A stretch of DNA of 35,430 nucleotides. Source: an uncultured Veillonellaceae bacterium (lineage in GTDB: Bacteria > Bacillota > Negativicutes > Veillonellales > Negativicoccaceae). Below the pieces are notes generated by a model. The model saw only the letters and a list, made by a program, of their open reading frames with translations. It was not told the DNA's origin and made no database searches. A program made the translations under genes and the position numbers. Positions 662 to 19,730 of this stretch are shown here, one piece after another (positions within the stretch are counted from its first letter, which is position 1; every line of letters begins with the position of its first letter). Where the stretch lies: NCBI GenBank assembly GCA_945876385.1, contig CAMCNU010000013.1:1-35430 (forward strand), written 5' to 3'.

Positions 662-1939
662 TCAATCCGCCCGTGCAAATGTGAGCAATCGCTCCCGATA
701 ATAGGCATACTGCCGCTCACGCAACGCCATCTCGCGCGGCAATCCCGCCGTCACATCACGGCAAAGCATCTCCAACTTGTCGAGTATCCCGACCACCTGC
801 CGCTGTACGCCAAGCGGCGGCACGGGGATACGATATGCCTTCAATTCTTGCATTTTGACACTGGCAAAACTCGACGCATTTACATTCCGTTTTGCCCAGT
901 CGTCAATCAAATAAAAATAATGATAAATATACTTCATATCCACCGTATCTGCGTATTCCGACTTGAGCGCAAAATTCGTAAAACGCTGATTCGCCAAGTA
1001 GTCCACCTGCACCAACGCATGTACGCCGATGGTCGCCGTCGTCGCCATAATAATCGAACCGGCAGGAAACAGCGCGCCTTTGACCCCGTCGGGATGTACT
1101 TTTTGCATCGCGTCATCGAGAATATTCCCGTGCGCGCGGATATCCTCCATACGAAACCACGGCACTGTCCCGTCTTGCCAATACGATTTCACCCGTTTAC
1201 TCGGCGTATAGCCGTTTCTGATATGAAACAGTTCGCACAGCGAATAACTTTCCACAGGTAAACCACGAGTTTGCCGCTCCGCATTACGTGTAGCAGACAA
1301 CTTTGTCAGGTACGTTTCCGAGAGCAACATGTCCCGATAGTATTCGTACTGGCGGAGACGTTGCGCCCGTTCTGTTTGTAATTCGGTCGTGAGTGCGGTG
1401 AGGGTATCGAGGATGCGCACGATTTCGCGTTGGATTTCAAGCGGCGGCACGGGGATTACGATTTTCTTCATCAAATCTTTGGATACATTGAACCGTGTCA
1501 CGCCCGATGCCGTTTTGCAAATCGCCTTGCGCATAGCAGACGTACGAAACAGATGCTTCATAAAGTCGGGCAACAAGATGCCTTTGTCATGCAGTCGCCA
1601 AAAAAAGCAGAAACTGTTCAGGTATATCTCCCGCTCAGGGACACACACCACCACAGAGCTCATGCCGGACTCGTCGCTGATTTCCGATGAGCCGGTAAAA
1701 ATCACATCGCCCACCTGCAATGCATGCTGCTTTTCTTCCGCTCCGACAGATACACGTTCCAAGTCATTCATATCCGTTGCCGCATTGGCAAATACGTTTC
1801 GATACGGAACAAAGCGAGCGTTTCCGCCGCCAAAATCCGTTTTTGTTTTCCCTTTGAGACCACTGTAAAATGTCCCCAATTCCCCCAATGTCCGCCACGC
1901 GACGGGGGCGGCGGCGAGGCGTTCCCACAGGTCAGGCAT
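662..1939 (-). CDS. hsdS: Type I restriction-modification specificity subunit S
   Basis: HsdS chooses the DNA target of a type I restriction-modification complex and bridges two HsdM subunits. The 425-residue product has the family's two-fold layout. Target recognition domain 1 covers about residues 14-160, followed by the conserved helix region [17 protein letters not shown] (162-178) and [10 protein letters not shown] (197-206). Target recognition domain 2 covers about 230-370, followed by a second copy, [17 protein letters not shown] (371-387) and [10 protein letters not shown] (410-419). The two recognition domains differ in sequence, so an asymmetric bipartite target is expected; the target itself cannot be read from the sequence. 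The ATG at 1939 overlaps the end of hsdM (stop 1932-1934) by 8 bases, which argues for translational coupling and against the longer upstream frame. The gene looks intact. Confidence 0.93.
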
Positions 1940-3518
1940 GGTCGAGCTCCTTGACGATGGTGTCGATTTCGGCGCGCAGGGTGTCGATGCGGGCGACGGT
2001 CGCGGCGATGTCGGCATTGAGCGCATCGATGTCGATCGGCTCGCGGGTGTCTTTCTTGTCGATGTAGGTCGATACGGAGAGGTTGTAATCGTTGTCGGCG
2101 ACGGTCGCGACGTCGACATAGCGGGCAAAATAGTCCTCGTCCTCACGCGTGCGGAACGCTGTCAGGATGCGGTCGATATTCGCGTCGGAGAGGATGTTGT
2201 TGTTCGTTTCTTTTCGGTATTCCGCGCTCGCGTCGATAAAGAGGATTTTGTTGTCGGTCTTGTTCTTGGCCATGACGAGGACGCAGGTCGCGATTGACGT
2301 CCCGAAGAAGAGATTTTCCGGGAGTTGGATGATGCAATCGACGAAGTTGTTGTCTACGAGGTATTGGCGGATGGTCTTTTCCGCGCCTTTGCGATAGAAG
2401 ATGCCCGGGAAGCAGACAATGGCGGCGCGGCCCTTGCCGGAGAGGTAGCTCAGCGCATGCAGGATAAAGGCATAGTCCGCCTTGGACTTGGGGGCGAGCT
2501 TGCCCGCGGGAGCAAAGCGTTCGTCATTGATGAGGGTGGGGTCGTCGTCGCCGATCCATTTGATCGAGTACGGCGGATTGGAGACGATGGCGTCAAACGG
2601 TTTTTCGTCCTGATGAAGCGGTTGGAGCAGGGTATCGCCCCGCCGGATGGAAAAATCGTTGTAGTCGATATTGTGCAGGAACATATTCATGCGGGCGAGG
2701 TTGTAATTCGTCATATTGATTTCCTGCCCGAAAAAGCCGTCTTCGATGATGTGTTCGTCAAACTGTTTTTTCATCTGGAGCAGCAGCGAGCCGCTGCCGC
2801 AGGTGGGGTCGTAGACTTTATTGATACGGGTCTTGCCGTCGATGACGAGGCGCGCGAGGAGTTTGGATACGGTCTGCGGCGTGAAAAATTCGCCGCCGGA
2901 TTTGCCCGCATTGCTTGCATAGTTGGAGATGAGGTATTCATAGGCGTCGCCGAAGGCGTCGATTTCATTGTCTTGGAAGGCACCGAAATCGATTTGCGCG
3001 ATGCCTTGCAGGATGGCGGTGAGGCGTTTGTTTTTGTCGGCGACGGTCGAGCCGAGGCGGTTGCTCGTCATATCGACGTCTTCAAAGAGGCCTTTGATGT
3101 CGTCTTCGGAGGCGTAGCCGAGGGCGCTTGCTTCAATCTCGCGGAATATCGCCGCCAGCTCCGTATTGAGATTTTCATTGTGCGGTGCCTGACGGGCGAC
3201 ATTGACAAAGAGCTGACTCGGCAGGATGAAGAAGCCTTTGTCCTGCACCGTGCCGGGGCGAAATTCCCGGTCCGCTTCTTCGTCGCTGATGGCCGCATAG
3301 TCAAAATCCGGAAAGCCGGCGTCCCATTCGGCACGGTTGAAGTAGTCGGCCATGTTTTCCGAGATAAATCGGTAAAACAATATGCCCAGTATGTATTGTT
3401 TGAAGTCCCAGCCGTCGACCGCGCCGCGGACGTCGTCGGCAATCGCCCAGATGCGGCGGTGCAGTTCGGCGCGTTGGGCGCCGGCGTTTTTCTTGGAATG
3501 CTCTGTCGTAGTGGTCAT
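1932..3518 (-). CDS. hsdM: Type I restriction-modification DNA methyltransferase subunit M
   Basis: HsdM is the N6-adenine methyltransferase of a type I system. It methylates the target set by HsdS and is also needed for restriction. In the 528-residue product the N-terminal helical domain is recognisable ([20 protein letters not shown], about residues 37-56). The linker EFFTP is at 210-214, the S-adenosylmethionine motif DPTCGSG at 237-243 and the catalytic NPPY at 314-317. Length and motifs are typical, so methylation should be functional. I chose the ATG at 3518, with GAGGTG at 3525-3530 as ribosome binding site, because the much longer open frame upstream reads through a non-coding stretch full of small repeats. 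It is the first gene of the operon, with a candidate extended -10 element about 90 bases upstream. With hsdR truncated, the locus may act as an orphan methylase. Confidence 0.95.
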
Positions 3519-3608
3519 GATGGTCACCTCGTGATGGTCTCGCCCCGCGTGGCGGGCGGCGGATGCCGCGCCGTGACGGGGACGGTGATGGATTGCGTTA
3601 CTATCTCG

Positions 3609-3617
3609 ATTGTAGCA
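3609..3617 (-). promoter_or_regulatory. Candidate extended -10 promoter of hsdM
   Basis: Read on the minus strand, the element is TGCTACAAT, a TG-n extended -10 hexamer about 90 bases upstream of the hsdM start. No good -35 box lies 17 bases further upstream. The identical string TGCTACAAT serves as the -10 region of the glycosyltransferase gene at 9489. Confidence 0.4.
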
Positions 3618-3755
3618 CAGTTTGGCGTGCGATGCGACGACGGCGGGGCGCGGCGGGTGATAATCGGTACACGAATGCGTGCCCCCGCACACACATGCAA
3701 ATGACGATGTCGCGGTCTGTCGGGGCGGCCGCGGTGCGCCCGCGCACACGCATAC

Positions 3756-3784
3756 AAAAACAGCGGATACGAGGTATCCGCTGT
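3756..3784 (-). terminator. Rho-independent terminator after the TonB receptor gene
   Basis: Two perfect 11-base arms (3760-3770 and 3774-3784) enclose the 3-base loop GAG. On the minus strand the hairpin is followed by a run of five T (3756-3760). The orientation fits the end of the leftward receptor transcript, although it lies about 270 bases past the receptor stop codon. Confidence 0.75.
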
Positions 3785-3873
3785 GTGTCGGTATGCCGAC
3801 GATGTGCCCCCGCGTGACGGGTATCGTCCGCACATATGCCGCCGATAATGACGACGTGCCGTCGGGTGATGCG

Positions 3874-3927
3874 CCGCCGCATGCGGTCGTCGTTGTACGT
3901 AGCGATATCCGCCGCATGCGGTCGTCG
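3874..3927. repeat. 19-base direct repeat
   Basis: The string CCGCCGCATGCGGTCGTCG occurs at 3874-3892 and again at 3909-3927, 35 bases apart. Each copy contains the 10-base palindrome CCGCATGCGG. Function is unknown; it could be a protein-binding site pair or a small duplication. Confidence 0.6.
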
Positions 3928-4057
3928 CTATCCGCCACAGTGCGTCGCCGTGCGTGCCGTGCGTGTCCCGTGCGTTGCCCGTTCATCGCGTGTGCGGTAA
4001 ATCTCCCGCCCGCATGGCGGGGCGGCCCAAGCAGGCGACGGTGTCGTCACAACCGTA

Positions 4058-14883: not shown

Positions 14884-17800
14884 TTATTCCAAGACAATCA
14901 GCAAATCGCCCGACTCGATGCGCGCACCCGCGCTGACGAGGATATCGCTGACATTGCCGGAGACCGGCGCGGTAATCGTCGTCTCCATCTTCATCGCTTC
15001 CGTGATGACGAGCGGGTCGCCTTTTTCGACGGCGTCGCCCAGGTTGACCAGTACTTTGACGATGGAGCCGGAGAGCGTCGCGCCGACTTCGCCCGGATTT
15101 TGCTTGTCGGCTTTCGGACCGCCGCCGCCGACAATCGTCAGATTGCGGTCGTGGACGACGACTTCACGCGGCATGCCGTTGATTTCAAATTGGACGACGC
15201 GGTCGCCGTTTTCATCGGGCTGGTGGATACTCGTCAGGCGAATGACGAGCGTCTTGCCCTGCTCGATGGTGACGCGAATCTCTTCACTGCGGTTCATCCC
15301 GAAGAAAAACGTCGGCGTATCGAGTACGGACAGGTCGCCGTATTCTTCAAAACGCTGCGCATAGGTCGCAAATACGTCGGGATAAATATTGTACGAAGTC
15401 ACGTCTTCCGGCCGGACGGGGAGCTGTTTTTCCCGCATCGTCTCCGCCACCTGTGCCAAGTCGACGGGGGCGGGAACGGGCACGCCTTCCGGCACGCGGC
15501 CTTTGAGGATAATATCGCGCAATTTCTCGGGAAATCCGCCGTACGGGATACCGAGTTTGCCGGCGAAAAATTCGACAACGGACTGCGGGAAGCTCATCGT
15601 GCGGCCGCGTTCGTAGATGTCCTGCTCATGCAGGTCGTTTTGCACCATGAAGAGTGCCATGTCGCCGACGACTTTGGACGACGGCGTGACCTTGATGATG
15701 TCGCCGAACATGAGGTTGACTTCCGCGTAGCGCTGGCAGACTTCTTCCCAGCGATCGCCCAGACCGACGCCCTTGGCCTGCTGTTGCAGGTTGGAGAACT
15801 GGCCGCCGGGCATTTCATGCCGATAGACGGTGGTATTGGGATAGTTGCTCGCGTGGTCGATACCGCGATAATACGGGCGGACTTTTTCCCAGTAGTGATT
15901 GATGTCTTCCATCGCCTCGATATCGAGTTTCGGCTGTCGCGGATGGTTGCTGAGCGCATACCACATCGAGGACATCGCCGGTTGCGACGTCCCGCCCGCA
16001 AAGGCCGCCGCCGCGACGTCGATGATATCGACTCCCGCCTCGACCGCACGGGCATAGGTGTAAATCGTATTGCCCGCGCCCTCGTGCGAGTGCAGGTGCA
16101 ACGGTAAATCGACCGCGTCTTTGATGGCCGCCGTCAGGGCATAGGCGGCCTCCGGCTTGAGCAGCCCCGCCATGTCTTTAATCGCGATGATATGGGCTCC
16201 TGCCGCGGCGCACTCTTTGGCCATGCGCACATAGTAGGCCAGGTCATATTTTTGCCGTTTCGGGTCGAGTATGTCCCCCGTATAGCAAAGCGCGACTTCC
16301 GCGATTTTGTTTTGCCGGCGGACTTCGTCGATGGTGACCCGCATCTGGTCGAGATTGTTCAGGCAGTCGAATATCCGGAACACGTCGATACCGCACTCCG
16401 CCGAGCGCGCGATAAAGTCACGGATGACCGTTTCGTGGTAGTTCGTATAGCCGACGGTATTGGCGCCGCGCGTCAGCATCTGAAAGAGGATATTCGGCGC
16501 GGCCTTACGCATGCGGCGCAGGCGATCCCACGGACTTTCGTCAAGGAAGCGATACGCCACGTCAAAGGTCGCACCGCCCCAGTTTTCAAAGGAAAAGAGT
16601 TGCGGAAGCCGCCGTGCCGTCGCGCCGATTGCACCGAGAATATCGTACGTCCGCAAGCGCGTCGCCATCAGCGACTGGTGGGCGTCCCGATAGGTCGTGT
16701 CGGTGAAAAAGACTTCCTTCTGCTCTTTGACCCACTGCGCAAACCGCTCCGGCCCCAGTTCGTCGAGCAGCTGTTTCGTCCCGCGCGGCGCGTCGCCCGT
16801 ATACGTGAGCGGCTCGCAGGCGTCAAATTCCGGTTTGGGCTGCGGGCCGACACCGGCATAGCCGTTCACCGTCGTCGTCGCGATATAGCGCAACAGCTTC
16901 GTACCGCGGTCTTTCGGCGGCTCCCAACGGAACAGCTCCGGATGCGTATCAATGAAATTGACATCATAGTGGCCCGACAGGAAATCGGGATGCTGCATGA
17001 CATTGATTAAAAAATAAATATTCGTCTTGACACCGCGCACGCGAAACTCCTTGAGCGCGCGCTCCATCTTGCGCGCCGCCTGCCGGTGGCTCGTGCCGTG
17101 TGTCGTCGCCTTGACCAAGAGCGAATCATAGTACGGCGTGATGACCGCGCCCGTATACGCCGTCCCCGCATCGAGACGAATCCCGAACCCGCCGCCGCTC
17201 CGATAGGCGATGATTTTACCCGTATCGGGCATGAAGTGATTTTCCGGATTTTCCGTCGTAATCCGACACTGGATGGCATTGCCGTGCAGGTGAATCTCCT
17301 CCTGCACCCCGATACCGACCTCCGGCGACGTCAGTATGTAGCCCGCCGCCAACAAAATCTGCGCCTGCACGATATCGATATCCGTCACCATTTCCGTGAC
17401 CGTATGCTCGACCTGAATCCGCGGATTGACTTCGATAAAATAAAATTCGCCGCCTTCGTCGACCAAAAACTCGACCGTCCCCGCATTCAGGTAACCGACA
17501 TTGCGCATCAAGCGCACCGCCGCCGCACAAATCTCCTGCCGAAGCGAAAGCGGGAGCGCAAACGCCGGCGCGATTTCCACGACTTTCTGATGGCGCCGCT
17601 GAATGGAACAGTCCCGCTCAAAGAGATGCACCACCTCGCCGCGACAATCCCCCATGATTTGCACTTCGATATGCTTCGGCGAAGGGATGTATTTTTCAAT
17701 ATAGACATCCCCGTTGCCGAAACTGTACAACGCCTCCGAGCACGCCCGCTCAAACGCTTCCGCAATCTCTTCTTCGCGCTCGACGACCCGCATCCCGCGA

Positions 17801-18312
17801 CCGCCGCCGCCGTGCACCGCCTTGATAATGAGCGGCAACCCGTACTGCGCGGCAAACGCGCGGACATCCTCGACCGACTGCACCGGCCCGTCCGACCCCG
17901 GAATCATCCGGATACCTGCCTTTTCCGCTTGGCGGCGGGCATTAATCTTATCCCCGAACATCTCCAAATGCTCCGGCCGCGGACCGATGAAAATGATCCC
18001 CGCTTCTTCGCAGCGCCGCGCAAACTCGGCGTTTTCCGCTAAAAAGCCGTAGCCCGGATGAATCGCGTCGGCGTTTTGCTCACGCGCCACGCGCAAAATG
18101 TCATCCATATCCAGGTAGGCATCAATCGCCGACTTGTCTTTGCCGATGAGATAGGCTTCATCCGCCCGATTGCGGTGCAGTGACAACGCATCTTCCTTGG
18201 CATATACGGCAATCGTATGTATGCCCAACTCGTTGCACGCCCGCAACACGCGAATCGCAATCTCTCCGCGGTTGGCCACCAATACCCGTTTGATTGTTCG
18301 TAATTGCTCCAT
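14884..18312 (-). CDS. pyc: Pyruvate carboxylase
   Basis: This biotin enzyme makes oxaloacetate from pyruvate, bicarbonate and ATP, refilling the TCA arm and feeding the succinate/propionate route used by many Negativicutes. The 1142-residue single chain contains all domains in order. The biotin carboxylase is at about 5-450 (LVANRGEIAIRV, AIHPGYGFLAEN, HGGGGRGM at 167-174). The carboxyltransferase begins near 530 (FFTDTTYRDAHQSLMATR) with IAIKDMAGLLKP. The tetramerisation region follows, and the C-terminal biotinyl domain carries ITEAMKMET with the biotin lysine K1108. The ATG at 18312 has AAGGAGGAG upstream, and a good promoter is at 18352-18380. It stands alone between two terminators. It is not split into separate subunits as in some anaerobes. 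Confidence 0.98.
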   Translation of the reverse strand: MEQLRTIKRVLVANRGEIAIRVLRACNELGIHTIAVYAKEDALSLHRNRADEAYLIGKDKSAIDAYLDMDDILRVAREQNADAIHPGYGFLAENAEFARRCEEAGIIFIGPRPEHLEMFGDKINARRQAEKAGIRMIPGSDGPVQSVEDVRAFAAQYGLPLIIKAVHGGGGRGMRVVEREEEIAEAFERACSEALYSFGNGDVYIEKYIPSPKHIEVQIMGDCRGEVVHLFERDCSIQRRHQKVVEIAPAFALPLSLRQEICAAAVRLMRNVGYLNAGTVEFLVDEGGEFYFIEVNPRIQVEHTVTEMVTDIDIVQAQILLAAGYILTSPEVGIGVQEEIHLHGNAIQCRITTENPENHFMPDTGKIIAYRSGGGFGIRLDAGTAYTGAVITPYYDSLLVKATTHGTSHRQAARKMERALKEFRVRGVKTNIYFLINVMQHPDFLSGHYDVNFIDTHPELFRWEPPKDRGTKLLRYIATTTVNGYAGVGPQPKPEFDACEPLTYTGDAPRGTKQLLDELGPERFAQWVKEQKEVFFTDTTYRDAHQSLMATRLRTYDILGAIGATARRLPQLFSFENWGGATFDVAYRFLDESPWDRLRRMRKAAPNILFQMLTRGANTVGYTNYHETVIRDFIARSAECGIDVFRIFDCLNNLDQMRVTIDEVRRQNKIAEVALCYTGDILDPKRQKYDLAYYVRMAKECAAAGAHIIAIKDMAGLLKPEAAYALTAAIKDAVDLPLHLHSHEGAGNTIYTYARAVEAGVDIIDVAAAAFAGGTSQPAMSSMWYALSNHPRQPKLDIEAMEDINHYWEKVRPYYRGIDHASNYPNTTVYRHEMPGGQFSNLQQQAKGVGLGDRWEEVCQRYAEVNLMFGDIIKVTPSSKVVGDMALFMVQNDLHEQDIYERGRTMSFPQSVVEFFAGKLGIPYGGFPEKLRDIILKGRVPEGVPVPAPVDLAQVAETMREKQLPVRPEDVTSYNIYPDVFATYAQRFEEYGDLSVLDTPTFFFGMNRSEEIRVTIEQGKTLVIRLTSIHQPDENGDRVVQFEINGMPREVVVHDRNLTIVGGGGPKADKQNPGEVGATLSGSIVKVLVNLGDAVEKGDPLVITEAMKMETTITAPVSGNVSDILVSAGARIESGDLLIVLE

Positions 18313-18351: not shown

Positions 18352-18380
18352 ATTGTAATGAATCTATCCCGAAAAGACAA
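18352..18380 (-). promoter_or_regulatory. Promoter of pyc
   Basis: On the minus strand TTGTCT (18375-18380), a 17-base spacer, then TACAAT (18352-18357). The predicted leader is about 30 bases and contains the strong ribosome binding site. Confidence 0.7.
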
Positions 18381-19355
18381 CTGTTCTCGCCGCTTTCCTT
18401 TCGTGTATACACGATACATCCCCACCGCCACACGTATCGCGAGCATCACGCCCATCGATTGCCGAATCCGGTGATTGCTCACACTCACCGCCACAACATC
18501 CTGCCCCGTCTGCCGCCTGCCGCCATCACGCCACACCCACCCGCCGCACTCACCCCATCACGCCCGACACACCGACCGATTGACAAACACACCGACCCCA
18601 CGGTACGCGAACCGCTCACCATCACCACCGCATCGCCACTCGAGCGTCAGCGTACATCCCCTCCCGCCACGTCAATCACGCACACTCACCGCCACATCAC
18701 CACGCAACCGCCACCGTATATCATCCTCACGTCACGTCAATCACGCACACTCACCGCCGCATCGCCACTCGGGCGTCACCGTACATCCCCTCACGCCATG
18801 TCGATTACACACACTCACCGCCACGCCACCACTCACTCACCACGCAACCGTACACCGATTACACACAAGACACGCTACCGTGCCCACACGCTGCCCGCGT
18901 AAACACCGACCGCCGGACGAATACATCACCCGCGCGCCACTCCACCCGCTCGCCAGCCCGCGTGCCGCACGTCATCATACACCGACCACACGCCCATTCT
19001 CCCCGGCTCAATGAGCCGACTTCGTACGGCGGTCGCCTTACGCGCCGACCGATTTCCCACTACACCGACCGCTCACTATCATCACCGCACCGCCACTCAC
19101 TCAACACTCACCCGCTATTACACATCGACTGCATGCACCTTCACACCACTCGACCGTAATTGGCGGATACCGCCTGACGCTCACCACTTATCTGACAGCG
19201 TTCGCTCCGTTCTCCGCCGCCGCATAGTCATGCATGATAGCCGGCGCATCGCCCGCCGTTTCATGCATCCGCTCCCCACTCCGCGTGCCGCCTTTGTTTC
19301 TCACGCCCCGAACCGTCTGTACACGACGGCATTCGATTCCCGAAAATCCGCACAC
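18381..19355. other. Gene-free, C-rich and G-poor repeat tract
   Basis: Nearly 1 kb between the pyc promoter and the rplQ terminator with no credible gene. The plus strand is strongly C- and A-rich and poor in G: I count 33 C to 8 G in 18481-18540 and 31 C to 8 G in 18541-18600. Short strings such as CACTCACCGCCA recur in varied form. Three plus-strand frames stay open through parts of it, giving His/Thr/Pro/Arg-rich translations; this follows from the scarcity of stop codons in such sequence, and none has a ribosome binding site. The minus strand has no open frame of note. A short hairpin CGGCTC-AAT-GAGCCG lies at 19004-19018. I see no tRNA or known RNA here. Confidence 0.65.
18651..18843. 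repeat. Degenerate tandem repeat, unit about 64-65 bp
   Basis: Three units begin at about 18651, 18715 and 18780, each opening CGTA(C/T)ATC. A 26-base core is identical at 18668-18693 and 18733-18758, and recurs with changes at 18797-18822. Over a longer span, 18623-18703 and 18752-18832 align without gaps at 71 of 81 positions. Further weaker copies appear at about 18849 and around 19065-19100. Confidence 0.75.
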
Positions 19356-19380
19356 AAAAACAGACCGCCGTAGCGGTCTG
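19356..19380 (-). terminator. Terminator after rplQ, end of the ribosomal operon
   Basis: The eight-base arms CAGACCGC (19361-19368) and GCGGTCTG (19373-19380) enclose the loop CGTA, with five T following on the minus strand (19356-19360). It lies 11 bases past the rplQ stop. Confidence 0.9.
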
Positions 19381-19391
19381 CTTTGATTGTC

Positions 19392-19730
19392 TTATACCAA
19401 TTCGATGATGACCATCGGGGCTGCGTCACCTTTGCGCGGTCCCAGTTTCATAATGCGGGTATAACCGCCGTTGCGGTCCGCATATTTTTCTGCGATTTCG
19501 CTGAAGAGTTTCGCAACCACGCCTTCGTCCGTGACAAACGCCAACGCCTGACGACGGGCATGCAAATCACCGCGTTTACCGAGCGTAATCATTTGCTCGG
19601 CGACACGCCGCAATTCTTTCGCCTTGGTTTCCGTCGTTTCGATGCGTTCATGACGGAGCAAAGAGGTCACCATGCTGCGCAACAGGGCTTTACGTGCCGA
19701 GCTGTCGCGTCCGATTTTACTTTGGGCCAT
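19392..19730 (-). CDS. rplQ: 50S ribosomal protein L17
   Basis: L17 lies near the exit tunnel side of the 50S subunit. The 112-residue product has the expected start, [17 protein letters not shown], and the motifs [15 protein letters not shown] and [24 protein letters not shown] precedes the ATG. It is the last gene of the alpha cluster, 11 bases after rpoA, and is followed by a clear terminator; the ecfA/ecfT/truA genes often found next in Clostridia are absent here. Confidence 0.97.

Follow-up and report, generated by a model that had tools for sequence, protein, structure and literature searches.

A C-rich spacer with diverged tandem repeats between rplQ and pyc in an uncultured Veillonellaceae bacterium

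How does a compact ribosomal neighbourhood come to contain nearly 1 kb of C-rich, G-poor DNA without a gene? We addressed this question for the spacer between rplQ and pyc in a window of 35,430 nucleotides (the whole stretch analysed). The window is contig C13 of a Veillonellaceae genome of 1,516,237 bases in 24 contigs, and its minus strand carries 43 of the 45 called genes. The gap between rplQ and pyc comprises 1,079 bases without a called gene (between 18312 and 19392). The tract and its surroundings are as follows.

18381 to 19355, no strand: gene-free spacer, C-rich on the plus strand and G-rich on the minus strand (composition, no codon phase, no Pfam match, unique among the 61 genomes of the order)
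14884 to 18312, minus strand: pyc, pyruvate carboxylase, first gene of the pyc-ylxM-ffh-rpsP block (80-81% identity over 1141 amino acids, one locus in each of three relatives)
19392 to 19730, minus strand: rplQ, ribosomal protein L17, last gene of the ribosomal block (83-90% identity in three family relatives)
18352 to 18380, minus strand: predicted pyc promoter TTGTCT-17-TACAAT, abutting the tract directly (by consensus match only, 9 of 12 positions)
19351 to 19380, minus strand: rplQ operon terminator hairpin (hairpin 19361-19380, minus-strand T-run 19351-19360)

The genes of the pyc block are presumably those named here; the names were taken from the earlier note on this DNA, from general knowledge and from the block order. 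Two promoter-like sites were found in the region, compared with 0.7 expected in shuffles. The hairpin was listed by the search for the plus strand only, and its minus-strand T tail was read directly from the sequence. Since the predicted promoter reaches 18380 and the rplQ hairpin lies at 19361-19380, the tract probably occupies an untranscribed interval. It is thus probably a non-coding spacer, untranscribed in the sense direction, between the rplQ terminator and the predicted pyc promoter.

The base composition of the tract was determined on the plus strand. Over 18381-19355 we counted 436 C, 210 A, 166 G and 163 T, and on the leading strand T exceeds A (.215/.167). The earlier note had described C as about four times as frequent as G. 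This does not apply to the tract as a whole, where the C:G ratio is 2.6, but it does apply to the core at 18657-18856 (98:25, near 4). Within the tract, skew at the 200-bp scale is strongest in the repeat array described below. The GC skew of the tract reaches 0.46 over 900 bp. It is the highest in the window and, for windows of 300, 500 and 900 bp, the highest among 743,021 sampled bases of the genome. With 200-bp windows, one other place (on contig C3) was more skewed.

Tandem repeats were analysed by TRF and by ungapped self-comparison. TRF reported a period of 64 with 3.3 copies (18622-18834, 78% match) and a period of 129 with 1.8 copies, with scores of 270 and 300. As a control for the self-comparison, 200 dinucleotide shuffles of the tract were used, and their maximum score was 18.5. 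The best self-match had a lag of 129 and 95 of 119 identical positions (18596-18714 with 18725-18843); its score of 59 shows that adjacent related copies exceed chance. Further matches were obtained at lags of 65 (53 of 63, score 38), 64 (score 23.5) and 457 (28 of 31, score 23.5). The 81-base segment that had been noticed before, repeated at 71 of 81 positions at a lag of 129, was reproduced exactly as described, with its start at 18623, and the imperfect units of 64-65 bp were confirmed by both methods, far above shuffles. We then built a repeat profile from four units, with 100 Markov samples as a control. The repeat features, all given on the plus strand, are listed here.

18613 to 18676: repeat unit 1, 64 bp (unit alignment and profile, TRF)
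18677 to 18741: repeat unit 2, 65 bp (unit alignment and profile; lag 65 match above)
18742 to 18805: repeat unit 3, 64 bp (unit alignment and profile; inside the lag 129 match)
18806 to 18870: repeat unit 4, about 65 bp, second half diverged (unit alignment and profile)
19070 to 19101: first half of the unit standing alone (the lag 457 match; profile score 25.1, control maximum 15.7)
18476 to 18507: possible further half-unit, borderline (profile score 15.2; control 95% value 13.1, maximum 15.7)

The position of the tract was compared with that in related genomes. Three of three other genomes of the family retain both the pyc-ylxM-ffh-rpsP block and the ribosomal block, but at separate places. 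Among 135 loci, most of them rplQ neighbourhoods with 1.5 to 5 kb of flank, pyc adjoins rplQ in only two, and both come from the genome of the window. The tract therefore marks the junction of two blocks, and we infer that this junction was made in this lineage. In genome G001 the gap upstream of pyc is about 1.1 kb; its composition is unlike that of the tract, and the open frames in it are different ones. At the corresponding place in G002 and G003 there are different neighbours again. At E 0.001 none of the 60 remaining genomes of the order gave a match to the tract DNA, and a limited literature search found no report on the tract.

The strand bias of the chromosome was then examined, with the leading strand inferred from gene direction as the locally dominant gene strand. 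All 13 windows of 300 bp with an absolute GC skew of at least 0.42 in the sampled bases have G on this inferred leading strand. At four-fold sites in a larger sample of 862,376 bases, leading genes have G.475 and C.300, and lagging genes have C.488 and G.344. Thus the bias flips with the gene strand and follows the chromosome strand. The sign of the skew was surveyed in 199 spacers of at least 100 bases that remained after removal of regions of mixed gene direction. It was kept in 96% of 151 spacers between two leading genes, in 15 of 17 convergent spacers and in 25 of 28 divergent spacers. Since convergent and divergent spacers keep the sign, the bias is not only an effect of transcription. 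Between two lagging genes the sign was kept in one of three spacers (mean -0.02). The extreme windows, the four-fold flip and the convergent and divergent spacers together support the earlier proposal that strand-biased mutation acted on unconstrained DNA.

The strength of the skew was compared among long spacers. Pooled spacers contain G.29 and C.22 only. From 52 spacers of at least 300 bp, 29 with long leading-strand open frames were dropped and 23 were kept; the gene caller behind these tables still misses some genes. The 22 spacers other than the tract have a mean GC skew of 0.20 (SD 0.10) and A over T; in the tract the skew is 0.46 and T exceeds A. The tract ranks first of the 23 (z 2.46), and a few other stretches of the genome come close. 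In these 23 spacers the GC skew was not correlated with T-A skew, GC content or length, so a simple gradient from constrained to dead spacers finds no support. According to passages of PMC3174206, an excess of G and T on the leading strand is usual and low-GC Firmicutes show an excess of A; whether selection contributes to the A over T of intergenic DNA is left undecided in them. The tract resembles replication-strand skew of the usual kind in that G over C has the same sign at four-fold sites, in spacers and in the tract, and in that the tract also has T over A. It differs in the size of its skew, and the ordinary spacers of this genome differ in having A over T.

Tract-like texture was also found elsewhere. 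A first-order Markov model derived from three other C-rich stretches placed the tract first of 12 segments, with 157.6 bits over 919 bases. On the lagging strand AG and GG are depleted and CG is enriched, in the tract and in four pooled other stretches alike. The AG value was 0.25 in the tract, 0.27 in the pooled stretches and 0.63 in coding DNA. The context pattern of C at four-fold sites agrees with the tract only partly. The earlier note had held that its reading would fall if other intergenic regions were as skewed without repeats, or if the tract were a translated gene. The gene-free stretches C9:59244-59512, C4:37388-37793 and C4:55230-55403 do have the texture of the tract but no repeats, and no coding signal was seen in the tract. 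Skew and repeats are therefore separable. One of the 12 segments, C2:65015-65162, belongs to a GAG-rich 18-bp coding repeat (C2:65014-65165) and is the only one with the opposite strand sense; the gene that holds it resembles a trimeric adhesin by eye.

Local duplication was searched for in other spacers as well. A self-match score of at least 22 was reached by 8 of 110 spacers of at least 200 bases, compared with 3 of 193 coding blocks. Two of the eight were discounted, one on C18 that is a tRNA gene pair by eye and one on C3 that looks like short-period low complexity. Besides the tract, the spacers at C2:73070 (93 bp), C14:31739 (255 bp) and C2:26892 (170 bp) carry local duplications, and all three are skewed in the same way as the tract. 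At C2:73070 and C14:31739 the duplicated sequence in the spacer derives from the 3' end of the gene before it. The 93-bp tandem duplication at C2:73070-73240 carries the stop codon of the gene into the spacer behind it. The spacer at the end of C1 has a duplication of 186 bp and is not C-rich. The tract was also compared with its own neighbours (10 kb on each side, both strands). The best ungapped scores were 12 to 14.5, against 15 in one shuffled control, and no trace of pyc, rplQ or other neighbours was detected.

Based on these observations, we regard it as probable that the tract is a junction spacer enlarged by local tandem duplication and then eroded by mutation with a replication-strand bias, with no function needed. 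The spacer would have arisen at the point where this lineage joined two gene blocks. Part of it would then have grown, presumably by tandem duplication, of about 65 bp and later of about 129 bp, and the copies would have diverged by point substitution. With little constraint, the composition may have drifted toward the strand bias of the chromosome, with G over C on the inferred leading strand. Given the local duplications in other skewed spacers, the likeliest history of the tract is tandem duplication, whether by slippage or by unequal recombination, and subsequent decay. The suggestion that the repeats arose by local expansion thus holds, given also that they exceed the shuffles. Drift alone would predict that other long dead spacers look like the tract, but only a handful do. 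A different account of the composition is satellite-like amplification, in which a chance C-rich founder was amplified to about ten units and mutation bias did not set the base content. Repeats occur from 18476 to 19101, their lags (64, 65, 129, 201, 264, 330 and 457) lie close to multiples of 65, and it is the array itself that is the most skewed part of the tract. However, lags 201, 264 and 330 score below the shuffle maximum, the unrepeated flanks of the tract are skewed too (136 C and 50 G in 18852-19151), and unrepeated stretches elsewhere share the texture. We therefore consider this account unlikely.

A function in DNA or RNA would make the tract a protein-binding array or a structural spacer keeping the ribosomal operon insulated from pyc. 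In favour of this are the length of the tract in so compact a neighbourhood, the persistence of five copies of the unit's first half (a sixth is borderline), and a minus-strand RNA fold slightly better than that of shuffles (z -1.39, with 1 of 20 shuffles as good). On the other hand, the plus-strand fold is not unusual (z 0.37), no Rfam family matched in the window, and no similar DNA occurs in the 60 other genomes of the order. The minus strand has no strict G-quadruplex motif, for which at least three G in each of four closely spaced runs are needed, and a strict G-quadruplex element was rejected as an identity; 11 two-tetrad motifs were counted. The lag 129 copies differ by 24 changes, 15 of them transitions, and these are spread over the three phases (10, 7 and 7). 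A function of this kind appears quite unlikely, and the protein-binding array guessed at before gained nothing from the Rfam, codon-phase and Pfam searches. That the tract is a decayed repetitive gene is very improbable. Open frames of 179-191 amino acids do exist on the plus strand, and the period of 129 bp corresponds to 43 codons. But such frames are long because T and G are scarce, and the basic unit of 64/65 bp is not a multiple of 3. The plus-strand open frames showed no codon phase (chi2 7.1, p 0.31; minimum of 46 in 27 coding windows of the same length), and seven open frames of the tract had no Pfam match above cut-off. The earlier note was right that 18381-19355 holds no gene, and its idea of a gene remnant was not sustained. 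We give practically no credence to a Rho-utilisation zone, in which C-rich, G-poor plus-strand RNA would let Rho stop antisense transcription. The plus strand does have the C-rich, G-poor single strand of rut sites and is weakly structured compared with the minus strand. However, rut sites are about ten times shorter than the tract, and no Rho was found in this genome or its order.

The search for Rho used the model TIGR00767 (transcription terminator Rho). None of the 61 genomes of the order (G000-G060), the window's own included, passed the cut-off of 509. The best match in the order scored 39.7 bits, and the best in the genome of the window 31.1 bits. In a control, 8 of 14 genomes passed. 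The best scores (about 28-40 bits) fell on open frames of about 475-550 amino acids, which were taken as ATP synthase subunits. Judging from these profile searches, Rho seems to have been lost in the whole order; no report of such a loss was found in a limited literature search. Loss of mismatch repair was also considered as a cause of the skew, since repair-deficient cells have a strand-specific mutation spectrum. This was rejected, as mutS and mutL are present in the genome of the window without stops and over cut-off. Both exceeded the cut-off in 20 of 20 genomes searched.

The tract belongs to known kinds, the strand-skewed neutral spacer and the decayed tandem repeat. It resembles bacterial intergenic tandem repeats (minisatellites or VNTRs) in that diverged copies of a single unit lie side by side (3.3 copies by TRF), but its copies are strongly decayed (78% match). 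If the duplication and decay history is true, the tract illustrates on a small scale how spacer DNA is gained in compact bacterial genomes by copying of nearby sequence, and in two other spacers the copied source is the 3' end of the neighbouring gene. It would also illustrate the fate of sequence without constraint under the strand bias of replication. The single observation with broader bearing is T over A in the tract compared with A over T in ordinary spacers, as expected if the tract is nearer to mutational equilibrium. On this evidence, which comes mainly from one tract, it may lie closer to equilibrium than ordinary spacers. The tract would then be of greater age or under less constraint than other spacers; alternatively, its founder unit was already C-rich. 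A broader idea, which we consider doubtful, is that old dead spacers here reach a mutational end state hidden by ordinary spacers and codons. This state would be GC-rich and strongly biased to G and T on the leading strand, with leading-strand C kept mainly before G (CT and CC depleted).

Two cautions follow for annotation and assembly. The long open frames of C-rich spacers result from a lack of T and G, and repeats of this kind may break assemblies. When 32 contig ends of this genome were examined, 15 carried strong self-repeats, some of them in genes, and the 24-contig assembly probably breaks at tandem repeats. Within the window, short repeats of 9-11 bp lie at 3940-3979, near the predicted start of a 684-amino-acid open frame (1932-3986). 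The period of about 65 bp in the tract recalls CRISPR arrays. This identity was rejected, as whole units repeat (lag 65 over 63 bp, lag 129 over 119 bp) and no pattern of constant repeats and unrelated spacers was seen. An array with the CRISPR pattern and a period of 66 bp in the relative G002 looks quite unlike the tract. It lies at about 164487-165115 of contig C1 of G002 and has 36-base repeats and, by eye, cas-like genes beside it. In this array one spacer is present as four consecutive copies, with a single change in one of them.
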